DNA of 11,822 bases from Acidobacteriaceae bacterium (lineage in GTDB: Bacteria > Acidobacteriota > Terriglobia > Terriglobales > SbA1): assembly GCA_003136335.1 (NCBI GenBank), contig PLEA01000491.1:1580-13401 (forward strand), in the 5' to 3' direction. Under the pieces are notes generated by a model, which searched no databases, was not told the origin of the DNA, and saw only the letters and a list, made by a program, of their open reading frames with translations. The first letter of the stretch is position 1, and each line of letters opens with the position of its first letter. The position numbers and the translations under genes are program-made. Shown here in pieces: positions 8,274 to 11,764 of this stretch.

Positions 8274-8518
8274 GGAACGGCAATAAAAGGGACAACCATC
8301 TTCGAAGGGCATTTGTGCAATGCCTGCCATGGGGATGGTGGAGTGGGTACGGCCGCGGCTCCGGCGCTTATTGGCATAAAAGCAAAATTCTCACCGGACC
8401 GGCTAGCCGATCTTTTCAAACACCCACTGCGAAAATGAACGCTGGCGGCATGCCAGCCATCGATCTTCCACCGGATGATTTGAAGGCGTTGATCGCCTAC
8501 GTGGAGAGTCTGAAATAA
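8274..8518 (+). pseudogene. Class I c-type cytochrome relic: no start codon, one frameshift
   Basis: Directly after a stop (8271-8273) one frame reads GTTIFEGHLCNACHGDGG, with the haem-attachment motif CNACH at 8316-8330, then APALIG and SPDRLADLFKHP. At the C run 8423-8425 the sense moves to another frame, which continues KMNAGGMPAIDLPPDDLKAL and IAYVESLK to the stop at 8516-8518. One extra C would restore K-H-P-T-A-K-M-x-A-G-G-M-P, the usual axial-Met region (Met of GGMP). No ATG, GTG or usable TTG precedes the haem motif in frame and the signal peptide is missing, although AAAGGAG remains at 8259-8265. The two separate lesions point to a true relic more than a sequencing error. It lies just before the cytochrome c maturation genes. 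Confidence 0.8.
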
Positions 8519-8733: not shown

Positions 8734-9222
8734 ATGTCGAGCCAAGCCAAGACCTATCTCAAGTTCGGTGGTGCGACGGCGGTGATTCTGCTGCTGCTCG
8801 GCTACCTGGCGTATACCGGCGTGCAGGACAGCAAGAGTTACTACGTCACCATCAAAGAGTTGCACAAGATGGGCGACGGCGCGTACTCGAAGCGCTTGCG
8901 CGTTGCCGGGAACGTGCAGCCGGGTTCGATCAAGCGCACCGGAACGCATGTGCAGTTTGTGCTGATGGAAGAGGATCAAACTTTGCACGTGGACTATACC
9001 GGGACGGAGGCGCCGCCCGACACTTTCAAGGATGATTCCCAGGCGCTGGCCGACGGGCGCTTCGATCACGACGGCATGTTTCATGCCAAACAACTGCAGG
9101 CCAAGTGCGCTTCGAAGTATGCTCCGCAGCAGCCGGGCGCGCCGGCCAAGGGGATGCAATCCGGCGAGCCTGCCAAGAGTGTGACGCAAGTGCAACCTGC
9201 CGCCGGCGGGATGGCGAACTAA
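8734..9222 (+). CDS. ccmE: Cytochrome c maturation haem chaperone CcmE, cysteine (CxxxY) type
   Basis: CcmE is a membrane-anchored periplasmic chaperone that takes haem covalently from CcmC and passes it to the cytochrome c haem ligase. The 162-residue product has an N-terminal anchor (about 11-30), then the OB-fold domain with LRVAGNVQPGSI (55-66), VDYTGTEAPPDTF (86-98) and FHAKQLQAKCASKYAPQ (116-132). In most CcmE proteins the last block is L-x-A-K-H-D-E-x-Y, where the His binds haem. Here position 125 is Cys (TGC at 9106-9108) with Tyr129 kept, the CxxxY variant known from Desulfovibrio and some archaea. The tail from about 131 is rich in P, A, G and Q. Only a weak ribosome binding site (GGGA) precedes the ATG. 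It is first in the ccm cluster and separated from ccmA by 133 bases. Confidence 0.92.
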   Translation: MSSQAKTYLKFGGATAVILLLLGYLAYTGVQDSKSYYVTIKELHKMGDGAYSKRLRVAGNVQPGSIKRTGTHVQFVLMEEDQTLHVDYTGTEAPPDTFKDDSQALADGRFDHDGMFHAKQLQAKCASKYAPQQPGAPAKGMQSGEPAKSVTQVQPAAGGMAN

Positions 9223-9355: not shown

Positions 9356-10060
9356 TTGGTGCCTGTGACTGACGCCATTCCGCAAAGCTCGCCTGTCATT
9401 ACCGTCAGCAACGTTATCAAACAGTTTGGACGCTTTGCCGCCCTGCGCGGGGTGACGGCTGAGTTTGACGCGGGACGCTTTCATGCGATTCTCGGGGAGA
9501 ACGGAGCAGGGAAGACCACGCTGTTGCGGGCGCTGGCCGGGCTGGCGCAGCCAACGCGAGGGGAGATTTCGATTCTTGGAAAGACTCCCCACGAGGCCTG
9601 CCGTGATATTGGGTATATGGCTCATCCGTCGCTGCTGTATGACGAGATGAGTGGGATAGAGAACCTGCGCTATTTTGCGCGGCTTTATGGCATTGCGGGC
9701 GATGGGCGATGCGAAGAGGTGATTCGGGCTGTGGGACTCGACCCGGAGTTAACGCGCGCGGTCGGGCAGTACTCGCAGGGGATGCGGCAGCGCATGTCGC
9801 TGGCGCGGGCGATTCTGCATGATCCGAGAGTGTTGCTGCTGGATGAGCCGTTCTCGAACGTGGACGTGCATTCGGCGCGGGCAATGGTGGGTCTGCTCAA
9901 GGGCATGCGCGACGCGGGGAAGACGGTTTTCGTGGTCACGCACCAGGCGCTACTGCTCGAAGGCGTGGCCGATGAATTTGTCTGGATGCAGGCTGGGCAG
10001 ATTGTGGACCGCACGGCGAGCCTGACTCGGGCGGCGGCTTCCGCTGAGGACGTCCAATGA
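9356..10060 (+). CDS. ccmA: Cytochrome c maturation ABC transporter ATPase CcmA
   Basis: CcmA is the ATPase of the CcmAB complex, whose ATP hydrolysis releases haem-loaded CcmE from CcmC/CcmD. The product, up to 234 residues, shows Walker A GENGAGKT (47-54), the ABC signature region YSQGMRQR (139-146), Walker B VLLLDEP (159-165), a D-loop near SNVD (167-170) and the H-loop THQ (H196). Length suits the single-domain CcmA. The start is unsettled: TTG 9356, GTG 9359 and GTG 9365 are all in frame, no ATG is available before the conserved ITVSNVIKQFG block, and no Shine-Dalgarno sequence is visible. Its last codon overlaps the ccmB start (ATGA at 10057-10060). Confidence 0.93.
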   Translation: MVPVTDAIPQSSPVITVSNVIKQFGRFAALRGVTAEFDAGRFHAILGENGAGKTTLLRALAGLAQPTRGEISILGKTPHEACRDIGYMAHPSLLYDEMSGIENLRYFARLYGIAGDGRCEEVIRAVGLDPELTRAVGQYSQGMRQRMSLARAILHDPRVLLLDEPFSNVDVHSARAMVGLLKGMRDAGKTVFVVTHQALLLEGVADEFVWMQAGQIVDRTASLTRAAASAEDVQ

Positions 10061-10734
10061 ATTCGCTCTGGGCGGTGACCCTTGCGACGCTGGTCAAAGA
10101 TATCCGGCTGGAGTGGCGCTCGAAGGACGCGCTCAATTCCATGCTGTTTTTCTCGTTGCTGGTGGTGGTGATCTTCGTATTCTCCTTCGATCCGCTGGCG
10201 GAAGAGTCGCGGCATATTGTCGGTGGATTGGTGTGGGTCGCCTTCCTGTTTGCGGCGGTGGTGGCGCTCAATCAGACTTGGGCGCGCGAGTTGCGCAACC
10301 AAGTGCTGGATGCGTATCGGGTTTCTCCGGCTCCGGCCAATGCGTTGTTTCTGGCTAAGGCGCTGGGGAATTTTATTTTTGTGAGCGTGCTGGAAGCGCT
10401 GATGACGCCGTTGTTCGTGATTTTTTACAATCTGCGGGTCCTCGGTCCGGCGTGGCAGTTGATTCCGATTGCGGCTCTGGGAACGTGGGCGCTGGTGGTG
10501 AATGGAACGTTCTTTGCGGCGATGTCGCTACGCACACGGAGTCGCGAGATCATGCTGCCGCTGCTGCTGTTTCCCATTTCAATTCCGGCCGTGCTGGGTA
10601 TGGTTGCGGGGACCACGTCGATTCTCACCGGGGAGAACTCAGCGCACTTCTACATCGTGTTGCTTCTCACCTACGATGTGGTGTTTACTACAGCTTGCCT
10701 GGCATTGTTCGGAATGATTTTGCACGCGGAATGA
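10057..10734 (+). CDS. ccmB: Cytochrome c maturation ABC permease CcmB
   Basis: CcmB is the integral membrane partner of CcmA. The 225-residue product has about six hydrophobic segments, with the CcmB-typical cytoplasmic N-terminus (DIRLEWRSKDALNSMLFFSL), the FDP block after the first helix, and a central loop WARELRNQVLDAYRVSP followed by NALFLAKALGNF. The C-terminal half holds LRTRSREIMLPLLLFPISIP, a strongly conserved CcmB block. The ATG overlaps the ccmA stop and its stop overlaps the ccmC ATG (ATGA at 10731-10734), so the genes are probably translationally coupled. Confidence 0.94.
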   Translation: MNSLWAVTLATLVKDIRLEWRSKDALNSMLFFSLLVVVIFVFSFDPLAEESRHIVGGLVWVAFLFAAVVALNQTWARELRNQVLDAYRVSPAPANALFLAKALGNFIFVSVLEALMTPLFVIFYNLRVLGPAWQLIPIAALGTWALVVNGTFFAAMSLRTRSREIMLPLLLFPISIPAVLGMVAGTTSILTGENSAHFYIVLLLTYDVVFTTACLALFGMILHAE

Positions 10735-11636
10735 AACGGCTTTTCCCCATCCTCTCGGTCCTCACGGCGATTCTGCTAGCCTATGCGCTGTATCTGGCGC
10801 TGGTGGTCGCGCCAACGGACGCCGAGCAGGGCGACGTGTACCGGATCATTTATTACCACGTGCCTTCGGCGTGGACGGCGTTTCTGCTGTTCTTCATGAA
10901 CTTCATCGCGTCGATCCAGTATCTGGCCAGCAGGAAGCCTTCGACGAAAACCGCCGCGAAATGGATTGTGATTGCAATCGGGGTCGGCGGAGTGATCGCC
11001 TGCTTTCTGCCTCAGGTTCAGCAGTTGCTGCCGACCGGGATGCGTCCGAGCGCGGTGGCGACGACGGTGCTGGCGATTCCGGCATTCTATTTTTTGGTGG
11101 GAAAGTTTTTTCCCGGAGAGCTTCTCGACGTGCTCGCGGTGACCACGGCGGAAGTGGGTGTGGTTTTCTGCACCATCGTCCTGGTCACGGGGCCGATCTG
11201 GGCGCGGCCGGTGTGGGGGATCTGGTGGGCGCCGGGAGATATCCGGCTGACCTCGACGCTGGTGTTGTGGCTGATTTATGTGAGTTACCTGGTGCTGCGG
11301 CGCTTTTCCAACAGCGCGCAGACGCAGATGCTGGCCGCGGCGCTGGCGGTATTTGGCGCTTTGGACGTGCCGCTGGTTTATTTTTCGATCTGGTTTTTCC
11401 GCACGCAGCATCCGCAGCCGGTGATCGGCGGGGGTGGATCGATGGATCCGCGCATGCTGCATGTGCTACTCATCAGCTGGATGGCGTTTCTTTGTTTTGC
11501 ATTTCTGGTGTGTTGGTCGCGGTTTCGACTGGAACTGCTGCACCGTGAAATAGAAGAAGAGCACGCGATGGAATCCCTGGTCGGGGCGCGAATGGCGGCC
11601 AAGGCCAGCCTTCCGCTCAGTCGGAGCTCACGATGA
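10731..11636 (+). CDS. ccmC: Haem-handling protein CcmC, enlarged and with a divergent WWD motif
   Basis: CcmC binds haem through two histidines and the tryptophan-rich WWD motif and attaches it to CcmE. The start at 10731 overlaps the ccmB stop; the frame is open further upstream but only as an overlap with ccmB. The 301-residue product is clearly longer than E. coli CcmC (about 245). First helix 5-27; RIIYYHVPSAW (38-48) supplies H43; QHPQP (226-230) supplies the second likely ligand H227; SMDPRMLHVLLISW follows. Residues about 70-132, where usual CcmC proteins have a short loop, carry two extra hydrophobic stretches (about 77-95 and 107-127). The WWD motif, normally WGxWWxWDxRLTS, reads WGIWWAPGDIRLTS (162-175): the third core Trp is gone and one residue is added. 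The C-terminal tail from about 265 is charged. The frame is uninterrupted, so these look like real variation. Confidence 0.9.
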   Translation: MKRLFPILSVLTAILLAYALYLALVVAPTDAEQGDVYRIIYYHVPSAWTAFLLFFMNFIASIQYLASRKPSTKTAAKWIVIAIGVGGVIACFLPQVQQLLPTGMRPSAVATTVLAIPAFYFLVGKFFPGELLDVLAVTTAEVGVVFCTIVLVTGPIWARPVWGIWWAPGDIRLTSTLVLWLIYVSYLVLRRFSNSAQTQMLAAALAVFGALDVPLVYFSIWFFRTQHPQPVIGGGGSMDPRMLHVLLISWMAFLCFAFLVCWSRFRLELLHREIEEEHAMESLVGARMAAKASLPLSRSSR

Positions 11637-11764
11637 ACGCGATTAAGTTTCTCTTCGCCGCTTACATTGCCACGTGGGTGATCCATGGCGTCTATCTTGC
11701 CAGCCTGGCTCGGAGATTCAGCCGGCTTCGCCAGCAGTTGAAGGAGTTAGGCAAGGGGAAGTAG
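11633..11764 (+). CDS. ccmD: Small membrane protein CcmD
   Basis: This 43-residue protein starts in the ATGA overlap with the ccmC stop. It has one hydrophobic helix (about 4-26, AAYIATWVIHGVYLASLA) and a basic tail (RRFSRLRQQLKELGKGK). Size, position after ccmC, one helix with a central tyrosine and a charged cytoplasmic tail all fit CcmD, which holds the CcmC-CcmE complex and is needed to release holo-CcmE. Sequence conservation in CcmD is low, so context carries much of the assignment. Confidence 0.85.
   Translation: MNAIKFLFAAYIATWVIHGVYLASLARRFSRLRQQLKELGKGK

Follow-up and report, generated by a model that had tools for sequence, protein, structure and literature searches.

The open reading frame at positions 8734 to 9222 (+ strand) of the window, the whole stretch of 11,822 nucleotides that was analyzed, was confirmed to encode a CcmE protein with a cysteine at the haem-binding position. 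The protein is very probably the haem chaperone of a cysteine-type cytochrome c maturation system (System I*), working by the mechanism proposed below. The product of 162 aa, a CcmE of the CxxxY (CASKY) type, matched Pfam family PF03100 with 91.5 bits (cut-off, 24.6) over residues 35 to 132. Eight NCBIfam CcmE models also matched, all below their own cut-offs (best, 69.1 versus 126). The open reading frame contains HAKQLQAKCASKYAPQQ. The AF2 model (mean pLDDT of 71, below 50 for residues 130 to 162) showed an N-terminal membrane helix (residues 3 to 31) and an OB-fold barrel whose last strand spans residues 116 to 124. When this model was compared with the PDB using Foldseek, the top four matches were CcmE structures (8ce8_E, 1lm0, 1sr3, and 1j6q), followed by other OB folds.

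The cysteine, C125 (TGC at 9106..9108, + strand), is the only one in the protein and lies in the block LQAKCASKY, which reads onward as LQAKCASKYAP. In the model, it is located one residue past the last barrel strand and is followed by a disordered tail. A profile built from 43 relatives was searched against solved structures. The C125 segment was aligned to AKHDENY of E. coli CcmE (1sr3 and 8ce8; E values of 5e-9 and 8e-9), with C125 at the position of the haem-binding His. C125 was also aligned, in a weak match (E = 0.028), to the cysteine that ends TLMTKC in the CcmE of Desulfovibrio vulgaris (2kct). Four residues after the cysteine, Y129 (TAT at 9118..9120, + strand) is the equivalent of the haem-iron-ligating Tyr of CcmE, a role described in PMC3884852, and is almost invariant in alignment A2. 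These results bear out the initial annotation, which had assigned the gene to the CxxxY type from the LQAKCASKY block.

Relatives were collected in a one-genome-per-species scan by peptide patterns that excluded the LQAKCASKY block. Among the best 80 of the 83 loci with CcmE relatives, LQAKCASKY was present in all 80, at identities of 46 to 91%. Because the block is kept throughout, the cysteine is neither a chance occurrence nor a sequencing slip. Acidobacterial names were found on 79 of these 80 closest loci, in agreement with the earlier proposal that the DNA comes from an acidobacterium, and one locus was labelled Gammaproteobacteria. Exactly one CcmE was found in each of ten relatives examined; for these relatives, the supposition that there is no second, His-type copy was upheld. 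Among 120 database homologues listed, 119 carried Cys (118 CASKY and 1 CAPTY) and one carried Tyr. This last protein, the close homologue P0012, reads LQAKYASKY, with Tyr replacing the haem-binding Cys; it is a single sequence and possibly an error. The locus labelled Gammaproteobacteria (L061, or G206:C52) is a contig of the MAG palsa_1208 that begins inside an acidobacterial CASKY CcmE, and the same MAG has an HDEKY CcmE on another contig (C101). The CASKY contig looks like a case of mis-binning or transfer.

Next, we examined how common the cysteine form is in the phylum; the initial annotation had proposed marking His versus Cys across Acidobacteriota. In a sample of 197 Acidobacteriota genomes, whose completeness was not reported, CcmE was found in 129 genomes as 130 copies, and the motif was read for all 130. 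One genome (G106) gave two CcmE matches, one of them cut by a contig end; both are among the 130, and one was omitted from the tree described below. The copies were of the Cys type in 115 cases (CPSKY, 73; CASKY, 37; CPSRY, 3; CPTKY, 2) and of the His type in 15 (HDNEY, 10; HDENY, 3; HNNEY, 1; HNNQY, 1). Cysteine CcmE is thus the usual form among Acidobacteriota that have CcmE. Two Granulicella genomes (L064 and L070) carried the Cys-type system. A 2011 review gives CPSKY as the motif in 25 of 36 genomes (PMC3601427). In Pseudomonadota, a search with a Cys-type CcmE gave matches in 308 of 397 genomes. The motif was read in 31 copies, namely, 30 best-match loci and the other CcmE of the palsa_1208 MAG, and 30 of the 31 carried His. 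The sole Cys copy is the one on the acidobacterial contig of that MAG and therefore provides no independent case of the Cys type in Pseudomonadota.

In the window, ccmE is followed on the same strand by four further genes in the order ccmEABCD, and all the ccm reading frames are open. The ABC ATPase gene ccmA (9356..10060, +; start codon uncertain) was assigned by its match to ABC_tran (102.3 bits) and its operon position; its score against TIGR01189 was 125.3 bits, below the cut-off of 131.6, and this family was not the best among 195 matched. The membrane subunit gene ccmB (10057..10734, +) matched PF03379 with 114.1 bits and TIGR01190 with 66.7 bits, the latter below cut-off. The gene for the haem-handling membrane protein CcmC (10731..11636, +) matched PF01578 with 91.8 bits and TIGR01191 with 116.7 bits (cut-off, 186). 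The last gene (11633..11764, +) encodes a CcmD-like small membrane protein of 43 aa, which matched TIGR04391 (CcmD_alt_fam) with 35.3 bits, above the cut-off of 24, and had no Pfam match.

The tryptophan motif of CcmC is altered in the window. At 11214..11252 (+ strand) it reads WGIWWAPGDIRLT, compared with WGxWWxWDxRLT, and WxWD, described as conserved for haem handling in a recent review (PMC12285233), is lost. Among 63 CcmC open reading frames of close relatives, 19 had an A[PVT]GD form, 40 had WGIWWTWDxRLT, and 4 fell outside this pattern, one of which reads WGIWWAWDARTT. The motif in other Cys-type lineages was WGTWWTWEARLT or WGVWWTGEVRLT, and four of the five His-type CcmC proteins in view kept WxWD, the fifth being unmatched. 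Upstream of ccmE, positions 8274 to 8518 (+ strand) hold a remnant of a small cytochrome c with CNACH at 8316 to 8330. It looks broken, unless the contig is in error, because its halves are in different frames and it shows no sign of a signal peptide. At the related locus L002, translation of the 1.2 kb preceding ccmE in the three + frames showed no CNACH.

The initial annotation had further linked the cysteine form to Ccm systems lacking CcmG and CcmH, and possibly to a reduced ligase module, and had pointed to ccmF, ccmG, and ccmH as the genes to look for. We searched ten relatives for these genes. All ten had a CcmH match (PF03918) over the family cut-off; it was no farther than about 1.5 kb from the PF01578 match of a CcmF frame (681 to 917 aa), and the ccmF-ccmH cluster was located away from ccmEABCD. 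In genome G004, the two proteins scored 198 bits (CcmF_C) and 61 bits (CcmH). The clusters at L164 and L168 consist of ccmF, ccmH, a gene for a protein of 99 to 103 aa, which we take to be CcmI-like, and a gene for a larger protein. In L164, the short protein had no Pfam match and the larger one had a weak carboxypeptidase-regulatory-like match; the order of the L161 cluster was less cleanly resolved than those of L164 and L168. The clade of the window's CcmE in the tree comprises 24 rows, that is, 23 genomes and the window, and a CcmH of the CxCxC type was found in 23 of the 23 genomes. The absence of CcmH in close relatives was thereby excluded. This agrees with the 2011 review, according to which about one-third of bacteria with Cys-CcmE have CcmH and its absence "is not a characteristic feature" (PMC3601427).

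Arrangements were more varied in the rest of the phylum. Many other Cys-type genomes had a single operon in the order ccmE-F-(H)-I-A-B-C, and eight had ccmA-B-C-E-F with no CcmH in view. Among 114 Cys-CcmE genomes, 68 had a CxCxC CcmH (62 alone, 4 together with a PCC type, and 2 together with another form), 15 had CcmH only as an unlinked PCC type, encoded at a distance or on a different contig, and 31 had no PF03918 match (E ≤ 0.001). The association of Cys-CcmE with missing CcmH thus holds for part of the phylum, whereas it fails for the 68 genomes with CxCxC CcmH and for the window's close relatives. In total, PCC-type PF03918 proteins (mostly IAPCCWxxPVSxH) were found in 19 Cys-CcmE genomes (e.g., L189, L192, and L196), and in all 19 their genes were either distant from ccmE or on a separate contig. 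In 16 genomes (L248, L280, L288, and L296 among them), CcmF and CcmH were encoded in one open frame of 821 to 953 aa; these genomes belong to a CPSKY/CPSRY lineage.

The CcmH proteins of Terriglobales have five cysteines that all 37 aligned sequences shared, and the spacing CxCxC-x6-C-x4-C held in 119 of 120 homologues listed. When a different CxCxC CcmH was used as the query, 86 proteins were listed (query included), all of them CxCxC and some named Gemmatimonadales or Methylomirabilis/NC10; because they were found by similarity, they are not an independent test. The AF2 model of a Terriglobales CcmH was poor (mean pLDDT of 53.9, and 42 to 43 over the cysteine stretch) and therefore says nothing on metal or disulfide geometry.

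The search for CcmG gave a different result. In the His-type genomes searched (8 of 15), the best match of TIGR00385 was beside ccmH in 8 of 8, and three of these matches exceeded the cut-off of 123 bits. In the ten Cys-type relatives, the best matches among those listed reached only 55 to 72 bits and were located away from ccmF-ccmH, so that no linked CcmG was found with this family, which is unspecific because it also matched in 12 of 14 control genomes. A second profile, built from eight His-type proteins, detected the gene in all seven His-type ccm loci in view and a similar open reading frame, on the opposite strand, at 3 of 108 Cys-type ccmE loci. One of the ten ccmF regions (L161 to L170) gave a weak match to this profile (30.7 bits), also on the opposite strand. 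A dedicated CcmG may thus be absent in this acidobacterial Cys-type group, and the earlier claim of a system without CcmG and CcmH may hold in its first half; the second half does not, as CcmH is present in the relatives. Both Bacillota Cys-type operons described below end with a TlpA gene (104 and 109 bits), which argues against CcmG absence as a general rule.

The residue of CcmE was then compared with the motif of CcmH in the same genome. PF03918 was found in 99 of the 197 Acidobacteriota genomes, 98 of which have CcmE. The motif was classed for 111 of 113 listed copies by our own loose patterns, in which CxCxC stands for C.C[GSEDP] with another cysteine no more than four residues away, and the PCC class also takes in the forms SPYCP, SPFCP, and SPCHP. 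The two copies left out, G189:C168 and G018:C40 (23 to 25 bits), are additional matches in genomes whose class was set by a different copy. All 15 His-CcmE genomes had a [LIV]RCxxCQ CcmH and no other form, and none of the 114 Cys-CcmE genomes had an LRCxxCQ CcmH. One Cys-type genome (G026) carries, in addition to a CxCxC copy, a second CcmH copy reading LYCPVCPN, the nearest approach to the canonical site. The pairing over the 98 CcmH-positive genomes gave a Fisher p value of 5e-18, a figure that takes no account of descent. The CcmE tree (130 rows and 134 columns, with the motif columns left out and many forks unresolved) requires only one change between His and Cys, and the pairing is therefore a single contrast inside Acidobacteriota. 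A search of plasmids matched 85 records, and the CcmE motif was read in four: two Bacillota CPSKY, one Deinococcus HSEEY, and one Rhizobium HDETY. The two Cys-type operons lie on large plasmids of Metabacillus and Cytobacillus (L393, 9911-16887; L394, 9908-16883) in the order ccmE-F-H-x-x-A-B-C(-D)-tlpA, with no ccmD annotated in L394. Their CcmH reads HPPGCTDSMTADYC, which is neither LRCxxCQ nor CxCxC.

Two explanations of this pairing were considered. There is about an even chance that the match of CcmE residue and CcmH motif reflects only the common descent of whole operons without any functional link, as the single His/Cys change on the tree would suggest and as is consistent with His operons differing also in gene order and in the presence of ccmG. 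Against descent as the whole explanation, the Cys-CcmE of the two Bacillota plasmids and of Geoglobus and Ferroglobus, members of the Archaeoglobales with CXXXY CcmE, likewise occur with CcmH or CcmH-like proteins without LRCxxC (for the archaea, PMC4600277), and the CcmH of ANME-2d is reported to be similar to the CcmH-like proteins of Archaeoglobales (PMC9012536). In addition, E. coli CcmE H130C binds haem but is reported to be unable to hand it over to CcmFH (PMC9084895), which fits a coupling between CcmE and CcmH. Alternatively, the residue with which CcmE binds haem might form a coupled pair with the thiol site of CcmH, Cys-CcmE needing a different thiol relay; we put this forward tentatively, as the less probable of the two explanations. 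Under such coupling, His-CcmE would go with LRCxxCQ CcmH, and Cys-CcmE would go with no CcmH or with a rebuilt site, that of five cysteines in Terriglobales. The relay would not be compatible with the classic CxxC and might keep the CcmE cysteine reduced or help to break the haem bond.

For the window's protein, we propose that haem would be taken up by the C125 thiol, where the barrel ends, with Y129 as the iron ligand. CcmAB, using ATP, and CcmD would release holo-CcmE, and CcmF, encoded elsewhere beside the five-cysteine CcmH, would transfer the haem to the CXXCH of apocytochrome c. We infer haem binding by C125, its covalency, and the ligand role of Y129 from the known systems, and the presence of the same CcmF-CcmH cluster in the window's own genome from the relatives. 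The bond to C125 is most likely covalent because covalent binding is reported for the Cys-CcmE of Desulfovibrio desulfuricans; the Desulfovibrio ccm operon is functional in E. coli (PMC3601427). It is not certain, because non-covalent binding of ferric haem is reported for the CcmE of D. vulgaris, which is also of the Cys type (PMC3884852). That C125 likewise holds haem as an iron ligand only is rather unlikely, since the D. desulfuricans protein and the CcmE of Methanosarcina acetivorans, whose haem-stained band is missing in the C120A mutant (PMC9084895), speak for a covalent bond. A system in which Cys-CcmE works without both CcmG and CcmH would be in line with the missing dedicated CcmG beside ccmF-ccmH and with the 31 genomes lacking PF03918 and the 15 with only an unlinked PCC type. 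For the window it is extremely improbable, given the CcmH beside CcmF in all ten close relatives and the CxCxC CcmH throughout its CcmE clade.

A further alternative is that the cell relies mainly on System II (ResB/CcsA), with the ccm operon as a second system that is partly relaxed. ResB was found in 32 of 50 relatives, with no ResB match in the other 18; in a first, smaller search, it was found in 4 of 10 Terriglobales relatives (L131 and L415 to L418). In G004, ResB is located beside a 525-aa CcsA-like frame with WGSYWNWDPKETW, and this genome has two cytochrome c maturation systems. Together with the altered CcmC motif, the ResB matches indicate that ccm may not be the only maturation system of the cell. 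Relaxation would also fit the loss of WxWD, seen in the window and shared by 19 of the 63 CcmC open reading frames of relatives. However, the window's ccm genes have open frames, C125 is kept in all 80 relatives, ResB was not matched in 18 of 50 relatives, and the CcmC variant does not track ResB, so a relaxed second system is very unlikely. The idea that the change in the CcmC motif follows the presence of System II was tried and found no support: ResB was present in 14 of the 19 relatives whose CcmC has the variant and in 18 of the 31 others (Fisher p = 0.37).

System I* is said to have been first defined, by Allen et al. in 2006, by the absence of CcmH; in the relatives of the window, CcmH was over the cut-off in ten of ten. 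The system differs from the canonical System I, as the window's CcmE has Cys and not HxxxY, and an LRCxxC CcmH was found in none of the 114 Cys-CcmE genomes. It shares with the System I* of D. desulfuricans and D. vulgaris a CxxxY CcmE encoded in a ccm operon, with Cys at the same alignment position. The motif is CASKY and not CPSKY, the similarity to D. vulgaris CcmE (2kct) is only distant (17 bits), and the window's relatives keep CcmH, which is reported to be absent in Desulfovibrio (PMC3601427). The streamlined Ccm of M. acetivorans also has Cys-CcmE and works without CcmG; it is described as lacking CcmD, CcmH, and CcmI (PMC9084895), whereas the window has a CcmD-like gene and its relatives have CcmH. 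The Ccm of Geoglobus and Ferroglobus likewise combines CXXXY CcmE with CcmH-like proteins lacking LRCXXC, there of the LX[SN]C[EDH]C type. In those archaea, two CcmH-like proteins flank a duplicate CcmF (PMC4600277), whereas each of the ten acidobacterial relatives has a single CcmH match above the cut-off, next to a single CcmF. The canonical System I of E. coli (1sr3 and 8ce8) has the same OB fold and the partners CcmABCD, but it has His (HDENY) where the window has Cys (CASKY), and an LRCxxC CcmH with CcmG where the relatives have a CxCxC CcmH without linked CcmG.

The cysteine form and its function are already published for Desulfovibrio and archaea as System I*. The groups with Cys-CcmE named in section 8 of the 2011 review are delta-proteobacteria, Chloroflexi, and Firmicutes, and Acidobacteria are not among them (PMC3601427). 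A literature search for Acidobacteri* with "cytochrome c maturation" or "Ccm system" found no paper, and no description was found of Cys-CcmE in Acidobacteriota or of the CcmE-CcmH pairing. With the present results, a soil phylum joins Desulfovibrio and the archaea among the known cases, and the cysteine system is the norm there; two genomes of Granulicella, a genus with named strains, carry it. The pairing of the residues of CcmE and CcmH is the part worth following up, with its functional reading as a hypothesis. If the pairing is functional, it would offer a handle on how the stable cysteine-haem bond of CcmE is broken, a question raised in the 2011 review (PMC3601427).
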